This document shows, in pieces, positions 3,194-20,484 of a stretch of DNA of 29,810 bases. A program made the position numbers and the translations under genes. Where the stretch lies: the IMG/VR virus record IMGVR_UViG_3300036828_000479, positions 1 to 29,810 of that record. One strand, written 5' to 3'. This stretch comes from a virus. Position 1 is the stretch's first letter. The number at the start of each line of letters is the position of its first letter. The notes below the pieces were generated by a model. It was not told where the DNA came from and made no database searches. It saw only the letters and a list, made by a program, of their open reading frames with translations.

Positions 3194-3496
3194 TCAGCCA
3201 ACCTTTTTGCCTTTTTGGTTGCTGGATGAACTGGGATACCCATTAGGGGAGAGAACCGGAGATATTTGCCCAACCTCCGGTGCAACGTCGCCAGTCATTA
3301 ACCACATTGCATATTTTTTGAACCGCTGATGCTGAGTGATCATCAAGAGAAACTCACTACCAACGCTCTTGATACGATCTGTTTCGTATCGCTTCAAATT
3401 TCCTGCGGGAACCCCTGTTAATACTGCAAATTCTTCGCGGCTTAATCCTTCAGCCTCACGGATCTCACGAATTTTTGAACCTATGTTGGTTGACAT
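3194..3496 (-). CDS. C: P2 C-like lysogeny repressor
   Basis: Small helix-turn-helix repressor of 100 aa, essentially the length of P2 C (99 aa). The HTH spans about residues 18-45 (REEFAVLTGVPAGNLKRYE), followed by a short dimerisation region. There is no LexA-type autocleavage domain, so induction should not depend on RecA, as for P2. It is divergent from cox across 87 bases carrying repeated TGTACCC boxes. It should hold the early promoter silent in the lysogen and control its own transcript, which continues into int and probably the nuclease gene. Confidence 0.88.
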   Translation of the reverse strand: MSTNIGSKIREIREAEGLSREEFAVLTGVPAGNLKRYETDRIKSVGSEFLLMITQHQRFKKYAMWLMTGDVAPEVGQISPVLSPNGYPSSSSNQKGKKVG

Positions 3497-3506
3497 GGTA
3501 ATTATT

Positions 3507-3544
3507 TGTACCCATAATCCAGTTAATGGTACGGATATGTACCC
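3507..3544. promoter_or_regulatory. C-repressor operator: direct repeats TGTACCC
   Basis: TGTACCC occurs at 3507-3513 and again at 3538-3544 in the same orientation, with an inverted half site GGTAC at 3528-3532 between them. P2 C binds two directly repeated half sites overlapping the early promoter, and the same arrangement is seen here between the divergent C and cox genes. The assignment is by position and repeat structure. Confidence 0.65.
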
Positions 3545-3552: not shown

Positions 3553-3583
3553 AGAAAACTGCGTGATCTCAAAGGGTATCATT

Positions 3584-3850
3584 ATGAACAAAAACCGACA
3601 AAAAAAGGTGATTGGGGTAAGGGAAAACCAACTGCCGGCTGATTATCCATTTGGTGACCTGCTGGAAGAGTCGATCTCTGACTACGCCCTGCGCATCGGG
3701 AAGAACAAACAAACCATTCGTACACAGGCCGATACCGGTGCCCTGCCGATTTTGCAAGCGCGCCCTGGTGCAAAGCGTCGCGTCAATCTTTACGCCATCT
3801 ATCTGAATGCCAAGCGCCACGCTGAGAAATTTGTTGAACAGATGAGTTGA
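3584..3850 (+). CDS. cox: Cox-like excisionase/early regulator
   Basis: An 88-aa basic DNA-binding protein in the position of P2 Cox (91 aa), immediately across the operator from C. The segment ESISDYALRIGKNKQTIRTQADTGALP is an HTH-like element followed by KRRVNLYAIYLNAKR. The start is set at the ATG at 3584 because AAAGGG at 3571-3576 gives a well-placed ribosome binding site; a GTG seven codons upstream has none. Known role of the family: repression of the lysogenic promoter and directional control of Int toward excision. Similarity is to the Cox/CII group of P2-like phages rather than to a specific protein I can name. Confidence 0.78.
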   Translation: MNKNRQKKVIGVRENQLPADYPFGDLLEESISDYALRIGKNKQTIRTQADTGALPILQARPGAKRRVNLYAIYLNAKRHAEKFVEQMS

Positions 3851-3859
3851 GGCGGGAAT

Positions 3860-4468
3860 ATGCAGACCATGCGCCATGTCATTACCAAAATCAGCCGCAA
3901 CACCTCTCGTTATCGGGGCTTTGTGATCACCTATCGCCCGCAAACGGCCGTGAGCAAAATCGCCAGATATGAAGTTAGTCTCGGCGATCACTCGTTCGGT
4001 CTTTATGACTCGAAGGCCGGGGCGGTCAAGCATATTCACCAGCTATATGCCGAGAAGCGGCGGAACACTAAAAGTAAATGGTTTTTGGTAGCCATTGAAG
4101 GCGTGACCACTGACGGGCGTGCAATAACCGCCGAACAGCTCAAGCAGATGGCGACAAATTTCAACCCTGATCTTTTCAACGTCAGTGTATGCATAGAATT
4201 CGACGACAGAAAAACCTTGAGTGAAGTTATCGAAGTCGCTCTGGGAGAGAGAGGAGGCAAAGTAGCGCTTATGGCTCGTATCGTTGAGACGCCATCTTTG
4301 AGAGATTTTTATAAATCGGTGCAAAAAGACCAAAAACCAGTTTACCCAGCCATCGCAATGGCGATCCGGGATGAGGCCAGTCAGCTCTATGGCATCGGGA
4401 TCACATCCAACCCCACAATCCTGGATACCGATCCGTTGGTTTTTGATGAGCACGAGGCTGCAAAGTGA
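3860..4468 (+). CDS. Early protein with degenerate gpO-like (scaffold/protease) domain
   Basis: A 202-aa protein. Residues 1-68 are unrecognised and basic. Residues 71-195 align by eye with the N-terminal protease domain of this phage's own capsid scaffold protein (19687-20484): FLVAIEGVTTDGRAIT against FRVAVEGATSDGRQIQ, the GKVALMARI block against GKMALYAQV, and LYGIGITSNP against LTGLAFTDNP. The catalytic Asp is kept (Asp85), but the position of the catalytic His is Phe114 (VCIEF against VNLEH) and the position of the Ser is Ala164 (VYPAIAM against IFTSIEY). The fold is therefore probably kept while peptidase activity is lost. The C-terminal scaffold region of gpO is missing. It lies directly after cox and overlaps the next gene by 4 bases. 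Role unknown; modulation of capsid assembly is an inference. Confidence 0.72.
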   Translation: MQTMRHVITKISRNTSRYRGFVITYRPQTAVSKIARYEVSLGDHSFGLYDSKAGAVKHIHQLYAEKRRNTKSKWFLVAIEGVTTDGRAITAEQLKQMATNFNPDLFNVSVCIEFDDRKTLSEVIEVALGERGGKVALMARIVETPSLRDFYKSVQKDQKPVYPAIAMAIRDEASQLYGIGITSNPTILDTDPLVFDEHEAAK

Positions 4469-4737
4469 AACAGGCATACACCATTTTGGTTGACGATCTG
4501 CTGACGCAGTACCACGCCAAGGCCCAAAACATCAATGCAGCCAGCGCTATCGCTCCAGCAGTGCGGGCTGTTTCACTAAACGACCACGCTTTCCGTTTAA
4601 GCGTTGGCCTCACTGGCTTACTGAGCACGGCAGAAGCAGCAGGCGACGGCGTGGCCGCTGCGGTGATCGATGCTTTGATGCTGCGTTGCAATAACGGTGA
4701 TATCCCTGTGCCACGTGATATGCAGTGTTTCGCCTGA
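4465..4737 (+). CDS. Hypothetical early phage protein
   Basis: A 90-aa, Ala-rich, mostly helical protein starting at a GTG that overlaps the preceding stop (GTGA), so it is translationally coupled to the gpO-like gene. No domain, TM segment or signal peptide is recognised. It is the last plus-strand gene before the opposing membrane-protein cassette. Position corresponds to the small early genes between cox and A in P2 (orf78/B region), but it does not look like P2 B. Confidence 0.65.
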   Translation: MKQAYTILVDDLLTQYHAKAQNINAASAIAPAVRAVSLNDHAFRLSVGLTGLLSTAEAAGDGVAAAVIDALMLRCNNGDIPVPRDMQCFA

Positions 4738-4832: not shown

Positions 4833-5315
4833 TTACCGTGGAATACCACCGCTGAGAAAAGCACATAAGCGCTCTTTTAGAGTAAGCGTTTGGAGCTGCT
4901 GGCTAACATAGTCATCTGAAAAGCCAGCAGCGATAATAGCTCGAATATAGGCCGGTTTAATCAAACCACCAGGAATATCAGAATCATGTTCAGACAATTC
5001 AGCCAATGCAGATTTGATATCCAACTCACTCATCGAGACACTACGATGAATGATTTTTTCATATTCGAACGCTTGCTGTTTAGCAGCCGCGCCATATTCA
5101 CTCGGTTTATAGACGAACAGATAAGACGACAGAATCATAATAAGAAAACCAAGCAGCCAACCGTTAAAAACATCGGCCATCACTGTACTACCGAGTATTA
5201 CCTGAAAGAAGCTCACCAGGTTAAACAAGCTTTTATTCAGTTTGGTGGTCATTTGCTCGCGGTAGTAGCAATCATACATGTGTGCTTTAACTTTTTTAGT
5301 CAACTGCTCGCTCAT
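4833..5315 (-). CDS. Two-TM membrane protein, SLATT-like layout
   Basis: A 160-aa protein with two hydrophobic helices at about residues 29-48 and 51-70 (LFNLVSFFQVILGSTVM and GWLLGFLIMILSSYLFV) separated by a very short loop, flanked by an N-terminal basic helix and a cytoplasmic-looking helical tail. That layout matches SLATT-type two-TM proteins found as membrane effectors of defence systems, but I cannot confirm family membership. GAGGA seven bases before the ATG is a strong ribosome binding site and lies inside the end of the upstream small ORF. It runs against the early operon, so it is likely an independently expressed lysogenic gene, for example for superinfection exclusion. A long plus-strand frame over the same bases was judged a shadow. 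Confidence 0.68.
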   Translation of the reverse strand: MSEQLTKKVKAHMYDCYYREQMTTKLNKSLFNLVSFFQVILGSTVMADVFNGWLLGFLIMILSSYLFVYKPSEYGAAAKQQAFEYEKIIHRSVSMSELDIKSALAELSEHDSDIPGGLIKPAYIRAIIAAGFSDDYVSQQLQTLTLKERLCAFLSGGIPR

Positions 5316-12370: not shown

Positions 12371-13543
12371 ATGAATGACAAAAAAAAAGCTAATGTCAAC
12401 GTACATGGTTTACGTAGATACATTCCGGTAGACATAGCAAGACAAATAAGAAAAGAGGCTGGGTATGGTTGTGTCATATGTGGTGCCCTATTTACTGACT
12501 ATGAACATATAGAACCCGAGTTTCATGACGCCCATGAGCATGATCCAAACAAAATGACTTTACTTTGTGGAACTCATCATGATGATGTAACTTTTAAAAG
12601 AATTTCAAAAAGAAAGGTTTGGCAAGCTAAAAAATCCCCAAAGAATATTATTGGTGGTCGCCTAACTCGAAGTATGTACCATCAAAAAGACGATCCAGAT
12701 ATAATTCTTGGAAGTAATAAACTCTCATCGTTTGATATGATGATATGTATTTACGACAAGCCTATTTTATGGTTTGAAAAAAGCGATAATATTGAAGAAC
12801 CAATACAATTATGTGCAACATTAATATTTAATGACTATGCAAACCATACGTGTATATCGAGAAATAGATTCTTAAGCACTGTGGGAAATTATGACATAAT
12901 TACAACGTCAGCGGACATAAACATCTTTAATGAGAAAAGAATAAATGTATTGTCGCTTAGTTTTGTAGGTGACGAATCAGTAAAAATTAACTCTTTAGAT
13001 ATTAATTACATGGGCTTCGGAATATCCGTAAACACACAAAACGAAATAACATTGAAAAATCCTAACGGCTGCATAATTAAATTTTCAAATGTTTTATTAC
13101 AAAACAACAAAAAATCAATCAACATCGATAGACCAATAGGATACAGAGATAATGGAATAGGTTTTAGAACTGCAATTTCAATTGCTTTAGATTGCATTAT
13201 CAAAGGTTATGAAGTGATATCATTCAATGGTGATGTTGTCGGATGGATAGATGGTGATTATATCATAAATAAAAACCACGAATACGTAGGTATCGTAAAA
13301 AAATCAATAAATAGCGGCCAAGAAATAAATTACGCACACGGATTAGACCTTGAATTCGTCGGAATAATAACAGAAATAAAATACCAGAACAAAGTCACAA
13401 AATCAATTCTACTCATAAATGATGAGTATGAAAATGGTGAACCGATATGGATATTTCCAAATGATAGAAGCAGTAGGAATTCAAAAAACTACCATGGATT
13501 TGATTTAGGACATAGATTTTTTGGTTCGACTTATTTCCCTTAA
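12371..13543 (+). CDS. HNH-domain accessory protein
   Basis: A 390-aa protein. The N-terminal 75 residues form an HNH-type zinc/nuclease module: Cys34-x2-Cys37, DYEHIEPE with His46, His56, then Cys66-x2-His69-His70 in LLCGTHHDD. The remaining 300 residues are rich in beta strands with repeated short turns (NCIIKF, GDVVGWIDGDYII) and resemble no family I can name. The start is an ATG with AGGGTGA six bases upstream. The gene is strongly AT-rich, has its own promoter-like elements and is closed by a terminator, which fits a moron or defence cargo in the P2 accessory position between A and Q. Nuclease-based defence is an inference. Confidence 0.72.
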   Translation: MNDKKKANVNVHGLRRYIPVDIARQIRKEAGYGCVICGALFTDYEHIEPEFHDAHEHDPNKMTLLCGTHHDDVTFKRISKRKVWQAKKSPKNIIGGRLTRSMYHQKDDPDIILGSNKLSSFDMMICIYDKPILWFEKSDNIEEPIQLCATLIFNDYANHTCISRNRFLSTVGNYDIITTSADINIFNEKRINVLSLSFVGDESVKINSLDINYMGFGISVNTQNEITLKNPNGCIIKFSNVLLQNNKKSINIDRPIGYRDNGIGFRTAISIALDCIIKGYEVISFNGDVVGWIDGDYIINKNHEYVGIVKKSINSGQEINYAHGLDLEFVGIITEIKYQNKVTKSILLINDEYENGEPIWIFPNDRSSRNSKNYHGFDLGHRFFGSTYFP

Positions 13544-14647: not shown

Positions 14648-16390
14648 TTACTTAAAGGTAACCCAAAGAACATTATGAATGCTAGTATTTTTATCATTAA
14701 ATACACAATAGACCTTGCTCACAAACTCAACACAATAATATGCATCCAAACTATAATTATTATAAACATAGTAACAAAAATCATCCGTTATAAACGTCCC
14801 TTCATTTATAGTTTTATAATCAACCATTATCCCTAGTAATTGTGAGTCGTTAAAGATTAAATCATTTGTTTCTTTGTTCTCCAAAACAACAAAATCAAAA
14901 GAAAATGATTTTTTCGCTATGGAAAAAGTATCAACGTCGACATTAACAAGTCTAGCTTGTTCGGTAAACATGTCTAATTTCAACTCATCCAATGATGCAT
15001 TAATTATATTTTCATTATGGGAGTGAGCTATCAGTTTTGCAAAACTTTTTTCATTTATTCCTAATTTCTTAAAAGCCAAACAGGAAAGAAGAACAACCAA
15101 CTTACTTAGCAAAACAAAAACATTGCTAAGATTTAAAAGTCCATTTCCCGTTTCAGTATGCATTTTTACAGGTTTTCCATGTGCAGCCTCATCTCTTATT
15201 TTTTTTATTATAACAAAATCCTTGTCAGTGAAATTTATAACCGACAGAAAATCACTATCTATGAGATTCAATACATATAAGTATCGTTCTTTAAATGTGG
15301 GGTTAAGCGTATTTTTAAAACCGTCTACATAACAGCAAAGAGACTCAATAATTTCATTACATTCCTCCTGATTATCAGTATCGAGAAGCTTCGCTTTTTC
15401 ATGTATCAAAGAAATTAAGTCAACTTTTAATTTTTTCATCTTAGGAGATGGGATCTTATATTTTTTTTCTTTATCTATTAACTTCTGACTATATGCATCA
15501 AGAATACTGGCATAACCCAATACTTCATACTCCCAAAACCCCTTATAGGAGTACATGCTCACAAACCTGGTCCATATATCTTCAAATTCATGCATGTTTT
15601 GTGCTGAAAAGAAATTATTTAGCATTACACTCCAATCGTCCATGGTTATATATGAAGGATGTGTAATCAATGTTTTTGCTGGGTAAGTAATAATGTTATT
15701 ATCAAAGTATCGGCTAATAAAATAGAATGGTGAATATACACCTCCGTTATCGTCACTACCTAGTGAAATATATTTAATTGACAGGTCGGTTCCAAAAATC
15801 AATGAAAAAAATGTTAGTATCTTAAAAGATAGTTTTTTTGCATCATCAAAGGTAATTTCGCCGTTTAATCTCTCTACACAAAGGACTGCATCCTCAAAAA
15901 TCTTAGTCATATTCCTGTCTGTAGAAACGGAAAAATAATGCTCCACAGTTAACAAATATTTTTCATCTTTATAATTAAATTCAACCTTAAGAAAATAATC
16001 TTTGATTTTTTTTCGCAACTCACCGTCTAACGTTCGGAAACCACTTGCACCATTAAAAAACTGATAAACCTCAGGAATTGAAATATAAAATCTGGAGTAA
16101 GAATATTCCCCCTTAGATTTTAAGATATATTTCGGATAAAGTGCATTAAAATGAACATTATTCAAATAAAGAAAGTAAACATCACCCTTGCAAGTGCATT
16201 TCACTCTTGACTTTATTTTTTTAAACTCTTCGCTATCTGTTTTGAATGAAGAATACCACTGGTTATCTTCGATCGATAAGTAAGGAGCTCGATTACTTCT
16301 AAAGACCAGTAGGCCTTTAACTGTAGGGAGATCATCAATATAGACATCAACATACAGCTCAAAATCATCTGAGAAATTCAATTCGCTCAT
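14648..16390 (-). CDS. ApeA-like HEPN antiphage protein (candidate)
   Basis: A 580-aa protein from the ATG at 16390, or 604 aa from a GTG at 16462. The ATG is preferred because GGGGGA lies seven bases upstream and a perfect -10 puts the transcript start very near the GTG. The C-terminal half is helical with the HEPN RNase signature R-x4-H in IRDEAAHG (Arg399, His404), followed by a long hydrophobic helix (VFVLLSKLVVLLSCLAF). The N-terminal half is beta-rich with LPTVKGLLVF near its start, the layout I associate with the ApeA N-terminal domain. ApeA-type proteins are single-gene antiphage systems with a HEPN nuclease. The gene is AT-rich, sits next to portal gene Q in a P2 accessory position and carries a tandem repeat in its 3' UTR. 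Confidence 0.68.
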   Translation of the reverse strand: MSELNFSDDFELYVDVYIDDLPTVKGLLVFRSNRAPYLSIEDNQWYSSFKTDSEEFKKIKSRVKCTCKGDVYFLYLNNVHFNALYPKYILKSKGEYSYSRFYISIPEVYQFFNGASGFRTLDGELRKKIKDYFLKVEFNYKDEKYLLTVEHYFSVSTDRNMTKIFEDAVLCVERLNGEITFDDAKKLSFKILTFFSLIFGTDLSIKYISLGSDDNGGVYSPFYFISRYFDNNIITYPAKTLITHPSYITMDDWSVMLNNFFSAQNMHEFEDIWTRFVSMYSYKGFWEYEVLGYASILDAYSQKLIDKEKKYKIPSPKMKKLKVDLISLIHEKAKLLDTDNQEECNEIIESLCCYVDGFKNTLNPTFKERYLYVLNLIDSDFLSVINFTDKDFVIIKKIRDEAAHGKPVKMHTETGNGLLNLSNVFVLLSKLVVLLSCLAFKKLGINEKSFAKLIAHSHNENIINASLDELKLDMFTEQARLVNVDVDTFSIAKKSFSFDFVVLENKETNDLIFNDSQLLGIMVDYKTINEGTFITDDFCYYVYNNYSLDAYYCVEFVSKVYCVFNDKNTSIHNVLWVTFK

Positions 16391-16477
16391 CACCATTTCC
16401 CCCGTAACACTTTCGGTTTTTAGCTTGAAAGTAGAGATATTGTATGATTCTAAAAAAACCACGACATCATCCGTGTG

Positions 16478-19594: not shown

Positions 19595-19686
19595 CCGCCG
19601 CGTTGTCCCCATTCCAGCCCCCCGCCAACATAAGCCAAACACGGCCAACACCGGCCACATTCGCTTACATGATCGGGGCTTATCCA

Positions 19687-20484
19687 ATGCCAATTTCAAA
19701 ATCTTTCCGTGTCGCCGTCGAGGGGGCAACCAGTGATGGCCGTCAGATCCAGCGCCAACACATCAAAGAGATGGCCGAAACCTATAACCAGCAGTTCAAA
19801 GCGGCGCGCGTCAATCTTGAGCATTACCTGAGCATTTTTCCTGACAGCACCTTCTGTGCTTATGGTGATGTGTTATCCCTGAGTGCCGACGAAATCAGCG
19901 ATGGCCCGCTAAAAGGCAAAATGGCGCTCTACGCCCAGGTTGACGCGACGGATGGCCTGGTGCAGTTGAACAATAAGCGCCAGAAGATTTTCACCAGCAT
20001 TGAGTATTACGAAAAATTCGCTGATACCAACAAAGCCTATCTGACCGGCCTCGCGTTCACGGATAACCCTGCATCCCTCGGCAGTGAAGCAATGAAATTC
20101 AGCTCAAATCACCTGGCGCAGCAAGGTCTGTTTTTCTCTGCCGCCGAAGAAACCACCCTCGAATTCGAAACACCGGAAACCGATAAGCCGAACCTGCTCG
20201 CCAGCATTAAAGCCATGTTCAGCAAACGGCAGGCCTCTGACGATGCCCGCTTTATCGATGTTCACCAGGCCGTGGAGTTGGTCGCGGAAAGGCAGCAGCA
20301 GGCCGAGGAAAAACTTTCCGGTTTGGATGGTGTGAAAGACACCATTCAAAAGCTGACAGACCGGCTGACCGCCAGCGAGACGGCATTTTCTGGTCTGGAA
20401 ACCAAACTCAGCACCACCGACCGCAGCGACAAGCGCCGCGAACTGTCAACGGGTGGCGAAAGCGCCGAGCTAACCGACTGTTAA
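19687..20484 (+). CDS. O: Capsid scaffolding protein and maturation protease gpO
   Basis: A 265-aa protein (P2 O is 284 aa). The N-terminal serine peptidase domain keeps the full triad: Asp17 in TSDGR, His46 in NLEH and Ser104 in IFTSIEY, matching P2 Asp19, His48 and Ser107. The C-terminal third is the helical scaffold (TEDVHQAVELVAERQQQ-like coiled coil) ending in the conserved LTDC. It guides capsid assembly, cleaves gpN, gpQ, gpL and itself, and is then lost. The start is chosen at the ATG at 19687 with CGGGG upstream, matching the P2 N-terminus; longer frames exist. Confidence 0.93.
   Translation: MPISKSFRVAVEGATSDGRQIQRQHIKEMAETYNQQFKAARVNLEHYLSIFPDSTFCAYGDVLSLSADEISDGPLKGKMALYAQVDATDGLVQLNNKRQKIFTSIEYYEKFADTNKAYLTGLAFTDNPASLGSEAMKFSSNHLAQQGLFFSAAEETTLEFETPETDKPNLLASIKAMFSKRQASDDARFIDVHQAVELVAERQQQAEEKLSGLDGVKDTIQKLTDRLTASETAFSGLETKLSTTDRSDKRRELSTGGESAELTDC

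Follow-up and report, generated by a model that had tools for sequence, protein, structure and literature searches.

The gene at 3860-4468 raises the question of why a phage with an intact gpO, the scaffold/protease of P2-like phages, should carry a second gpO-like domain in its early operon, and what that domain could do there. The window, by which we mean the whole stretch of 29,810 nucleotides of viral DNA that was analysed, has at this locus the gene order divergent repressor, promoter, Cox-like gene, fusion gene and phrog_2549 gene. The features on which the argument depends are as follows.

3194..3496, minus strand: immunity repressor of the C type, oriented divergently to the early operon (HTH_31 E 2.1e-7; phrog_147 E 4.7e-30)
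3490..3518, plus strand: likely early promoter, TTGACA-17-CATAAT, predicted by a scan as sigma-70-like with 11/12 consensus matches, between the repressor and cox
3563..3850, plus strand: Cox-like first early gene (phrog_11533 E 2.2e-25; Cox-like phrog_575 E 1.1e-3; Pfam Phage_Cox E 1.4e-3, below cut-off)
3860..4468, plus strand: fusion open reading frame, ATG start, 202 aa
3860..4063, plus strand: N-terminal domain of the fusion, residues 1-68 (phrog_2492 E 1.8e-13; AlphaFold model), also free-standing in Yersinia and related prophages
4064..4468, plus strand: gpO-like pseudoprotease domain, residues 69-202, with D85 kept, H replaced by F114 and S by A164, without a scaffold tail
4112..4114, plus strand: codon of Asp85, the retained triad Asp (GAC; sequence and alignment)
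4199..4201, plus strand: TTC, coding for Phe114 in place of the catalytic His (sequence and alignment)
4349..4351, plus strand: GCC, coding for Ala164 in place of the catalytic Ser, in the PA[I/M] motif (sequence and alignment)
4465..4737, plus strand: downstream early gene (phrog_2549 E 6.1e-13), whose start overlaps the stop of 3860-4468 and which flanks the insertion site
19687..20484, plus strand: true gpO (scaffold/protease), full-length Phage_GPO match (E 1.1e-91, on the open reading frame 19603-20484), D-H-S intact, full scaffold tail

The early gene encodes a gpO-type domain without its catalytic His and Ser

A preliminary description of this DNA had claimed a gpO-type protease domain in the early operon, and profile searches bear this out. 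Positions 1-139 of the 268 in Pfam Phage_GPO align with residues 72-199 of the 202-aa protein at 61.2 bits (cut-off 33.6; E 1.6e-16), PHROG families of head maturation proteases and scaffolding proteins match it as well (phrog_11933, head maturation protease, E 1.1e-20; phrog_73, E 1.5e-18), and BLASTP aligned it with the window's own gpO at 29% identity (E 2e-11). On sequence grounds, these matches to the gpO-type domain are far above chance. Since the Phage_GPO match ends with the protease domain, which is also where the protein ends, the scaffold part is missing, as had been claimed. In P2 gpO, residues 1-141 constitute the protease and residues 195-284 the scaffold (PMC7552001).

The catalytic positions were set by alignment with 46 gpO-type proteins, and both the sequence and the alignments agree with the earlier reading of the triad, in which Asp85 is kept while Phe114 stands for the His and Ala164 for the Ser. 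The P2 mutant O(S107A), with the Ser change equivalent to Ala164, is protease-deficient (PMC7552001). A functional gpO would have a D-H-S triad, a C-terminal scaffold domain and a place in the late head operon beside gpN; the early protein has D85, F114 and A164, stops at profile position 139 of 268, and is encoded between the Cox-like gene and phrog_2549.

Since its input alignment held gpO rows, the AlphaFold2 model of the 202-aa protein (pLDDT 85.7, pTM 0.73), which has a capsid-protease fold, indicates compatibility with that fold and is not fully independent evidence for it. Comparison of structures might have shown no relation to the gpO fold, but the best VIA-align matches were the varicella-zoster protease (1vzv; Z 9.8, rmsd 3.2, 113 residues), the pseudorabies protease (Z 9.2) and T4 gp21 (5jbl; Z 7.7), and the best viral model (BFVD) was the scaffolding protein of Serratia phage KSP20 (E 1.4e-7).

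The early protein has the fold, the sequence and the DGR Asp in common with gpO of P2-like phages (PF05929; P2 gpO, KSP20 scaffolding protein), at about 30-43% identity over the domain. It differs from them in lacking the His, the Ser, the middle region and the scaffold tail, in the shortened loop after the His position, and in being fused to phrog_2492 in the early operon, whereas gpO belongs to the late head operon. Herpesvirus assemblins and T4 gp21 share the fold with the early protein at about 6-12% identity, but are active proteases.

The N-terminal domain is phrog_2492

The first 68 residues of the protein had been taken for a new N-terminus. They correspond instead to phrog_2492, the profile of which covers residues 3-68 of the fusion protein. 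In Yersinia phage vB_YenM_42.18, phrog_2492 is encoded by a gene of its own (69 aa), which follows the gene at the cox position. The domain also occurs alone, with no gpO-like partner, in many Yersinia and related prophages. Since it exists without the gpO-like gene, the fusion ties the function to that of a phrog_2492 early gene.

In vB_YenM_42.18 the corresponding protein (L005:1886-2095, UNA05718), 57% identical to the N-domain and encoded in the same operon slot, is 69 aa long and stands free, without a gpO domain. Although it contains the phrog_2492 domain only, its annotation reads 'gpO family capsid scaffolding protein', a name probably transferred to it from fusion proteins such as that of the window. 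The fusion would explain such misleading 'capsid scaffolding' names on 69-aa early proteins.

In the model, the N-domain consists of four or five strands and a helix (beta-beta-beta-beta-alpha). The only structural match listed for it (3872-4063, residues 5-68) was a weak one to the anti-CRISPR AcrIF24, in its N-terminal domain (Z 5.5, 58 residues; PMC9001735), and a PDB sequence search found no sequence relatives of the N-domain among solved structures, AcrIF24 included. An assignment to DUF4761 was rejected, with an hhalign probability of only 15%.

The loss of His and Ser is fixed in an early-operon family

The gpO-like domain was found in a family of eight sequences in P2-like early operons, either fused to the N-domain or free-standing. 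The first scans of the whole collection, in which the query was either the full protein or L077 by itself, recovered almost nothing, L003, a near-identical contig (98%), being the only match of scans with a single protein. The other members were recovered with a degenerate DNA pattern that encodes FL[VI]A[VI]EGxTxDGR and then with family alignments; a scan with the C-terminal half gave no further family members. A second fusion is encoded in L081 (205 aa, 41% identity); in L083 and L084 the N-domain and a gpO-like protein of 142 aa come from successive genes with overlapping stop and start; and L077 (145 aa) and L149 (139 aa) are free-standing in the early operons of two host-genus genomes. 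These six and the window were aligned, while L163, an IMG/VR sequence and 93% relative of L149, was read by eye only. Phage_GPO matches were seen for all members scanned, and the frame is open at every family locus found. At L149:5400-6494 an inverted 168-aa gene (phrog_1244) lies between a duplicate of about 16 codons of the gpO-like gene start and the intact gene; the same locus is undivided in L163.

Homologues that retain the His or the Ser would speak against a dead domain at this locus, but none of the seven aligned members retains either. The triad reads D-[F/Y/A]-A in 7/7 early members, as against D-H-S in 46/46 gpO-type proteins, satellites included. The His position is occupied by Phe in four members, Tyr in two and Ala in one, whereas the Asp is kept and the Ser position is Ala in all seven; an invariant PA[I/M] motif surrounds the lost Ser, and behind the His position the alignment shows a loop shorter than that of gpO.

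The window and L003 differ by 4 changes on 469 nonsynonymous sites and 9 on 137 synonymous sites (Fisher p 4e-4), and L083 and L084 by 19 on 332 and 15 on 94 (p 4e-3). By these counts, the early gpO-like family is under purifying selection in two pairs. The label 'degenerate' originally given to the domain is misleading, since His and Ser are missing throughout a diverged family that is under such selection.

The early domain was not copied from the resident gpO

The domain had also been regarded as a copy of the gpO at 19687, and on this point the phylogeny disagrees. With the longest branches left out, a maximum-likelihood tree put five early domains in one clade (support 100/99), and when the two most divergent members were added the early rows still lay on one side of a branch (support 94). 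A forced grouping of the early domains of the window and L003 with their own gpO was rejected (p-AU 3.5e-7). In the five phages tested, own gpO ranked 41st, 42nd, 28th, 17th and 46th in similarity among 46 gpO domains, the window's rank being the 41st. Given this p-AU and these ranks, a recent duplication of the resident gpO is rejected; the gpO-like domain belongs to an old paralogous family.

Neither a union of the early family and the gpO group of the window type (p 0.08) nor one with satellite gpO (p-AU 0.24) was rejected. The common short loop and the missing tail suggest descent from a satellite-type tailless gpO, which the latter value permits and does not support; counter to such descent, the early-family profile scores long-loop gpO proteins higher.

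The satellites concerned (L058:2052-11499, G028; L059:901-11036, G155; L152:2959-11670, G164) are P4-like, with an integrase and an alpha-type primase, and L058 also has Ash and Ogr/Delta. They carry their own P2-family major capsid gene (Phage_cap_P2 E 8.5e-68 in L058) and a tailless 173-aa gpO protease. The stretches examined showed neither portal nor terminase, and these satellites possibly build their own capsids. Their gpO resembles the early domain in the absence of a scaffold tail and in the shortened loop. It differs in that D-H-S is intact (L058, L059) and in that it adjoins a gpN-like capsid gene; the Phage_GPO match in L058 has an E of 3.6e-42.

The gpO-like gene is an optional cassette

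In L073 and L074, the Cox gene has 93-96% nucleotide identity to that of the window and the phrog_2549 gene 82%, and the stop codon of the N-domain gene overlaps the start of phrog_2549, with no gpO-like gene between. In L083 there is the same kind of ATGA overlap, but it leads into the gpO-like gene. The phrog_2549 neighbour is common to L073, L074, L083 and L084. The difference between these junctions indicates that the gpO-like gene is gained or lost as a cassette, and that losing one stop codon is enough for the fusion. Intact gpO is also present in all four phages with the late region at hand, namely the window, L003, L083 and L084. On the opposite strand inside the early operon of the window (4833-5315, minus strand) is a gene for a 160-aa predicted membrane protein with a close relative in L074; L003 and L084 have a different reverse-strand gene in its place.

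With three different family members as queries, no second gpO-like place was found in any of 50,697 named phages. Short-frame matches (E <= 1e-9) in 392 genomes at family level consisted of tailless P4-like-satellite proteases and a few gpO-length matches in short open frames. The host genus is probably Serratia; mntR adjoins the window integrase and is 91% identical to mntR of a bacterial genome. Among 30 host-genus genomes, two have a gpO-like early gene, and a P4-type primase was present in one of these two as against 5/30 overall, a comparison that involves two positive genomes only. No description of an early-operon gpO-like gene was found in openly licensed papers. Whereas the gpO fold and phrog_2492 are known parts, the early-operon family of dead gpO domains appears to be new.

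Possible role of the early protein

We propose that an old gpO-type protease paralogue lost its catalysis and its scaffold tail and became a conserved early binding module. Its gene occupies an optional cassette between cox/phrog_2492 and phrog_2549, and the window has lost the stop after phrog_2492, so that a single protein contains both domains. This protein would be made from the repressor-flanking promoter before gpO exists, and it would act by binding and not as a protease. The loss of catalysis and tail, the early position, the optional distribution and the fusion to an independent early domain argue for an accessory binding module, and the location, rarity and presence/absence of the gene point to a role in conflict. 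Our leading reading, to which we give about even chances, is that it is an early accessory conflict factor which binds a host-defence component or a protein of a rival element and has no part in the phage's own capsid maturation. PADLOC identified no known defence family for the fusion protein or its neighbours.

The conflict could also be fought over the capsid itself. The dead domain might pair or compete with the gpO, or bind the gpN or gpQ, of a superinfecting P2 relative or a satellite, and so block capsid maturation at an early stage. A gpO fold with a dead triad would suit this. Pseudoenzymes, too, often regulate their active relatives. Also in its favour are the lack of a tail that would carry the protein into procapsids, the presence in related hosts of P4-like satellites with their own gpN and a tailless active-type gpO, and a clade of early and satellite domains that was not rejected (p-AU 0.24). 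However, the shortened loop and the replaced active-site residues imply that the substrate cleft is not preserved, own-phage gpO is not the closest relative of the early domain, and a satellite carrying gpN and gpO was not detected in the host-genus sample of 30 genomes. We therefore see a capsid decoy as a doubtful though not far-fetched explanation, and consider it unlikely that P2-like phages use the dead early paralogue as an anti-piracy pseudoprotease weapon against the head maturation of satellites or superinfecting relatives. Given the shortened loop, an own gpO that is not closest, and the fusion to an independently existing domain, a capsid-directed role is less certain than the preliminary description implied.

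If the early protein instead bound its own gpO it might serve as a timer that delays premature cleavage of gpO and gpN, and intact gpO does always coexist with it in the same phage where the late region is at hand. This seems improbable to us, since a gene that is rare, optional and missing from near relatives is not needed for maturation, and the ranks of own gpO (41, 42, 28, 17 and 46 of 46) reveal no visible co-evolution with it. An enzyme with a different catalysis, employing Asp85 with another nucleophile, would account for the retention of the Asp in 7/7 members, but this Asp lies within the DGR motif, which is conserved structurally as well, the aligned family has no invariant Cys or His, and its sole invariant Ser (S-[ED]-V) is away from the triad positions, which makes such an enzyme very improbable. 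The loss of two catalytic residues might also be expected of a decaying, functionless gpO relic. We find this hardly credible when the frames are open at every locus, two pairs are under purifying selection, the replacement motif is invariant and the operon overlap is conserved; a pseudogene is disfavoured by this selection and conservation.

For the conflict factor that we favour, the meaning would depend on the partner. If a rival gpO or gpN is bound, the protein would represent a phage-side answer to capsid hijacking, and if a defence component is bound, capsid proteases would be, or would have been, targets worth mimicking. An anciently duplicated and disarmed capsid-maturation protease domain, kept by selection in an early operon, would be a clear neofunctionalisation of a virion-assembly enzyme. 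The protein is small and open to experiment, and the family supplies natural pairs of nearly identical operons with and without it.

Other genes in the window

Between the portal gene and the replication genes, the window encodes a 604-aa protein (14648-16462, minus strand) that weakly matches the ApeA N-terminus (E 4e-4), contains an RDEAAHG motif similar to that of HEPN ribonucleases, and is encoded at a place that resembles the anti-phage hotspot of P2-like phages. Beside it is a gene for a 390-aa protein (12371-13543, plus strand) with an HNH-like start (CVICGALFTDYEHI...), which is perhaps an accessory defence gene.
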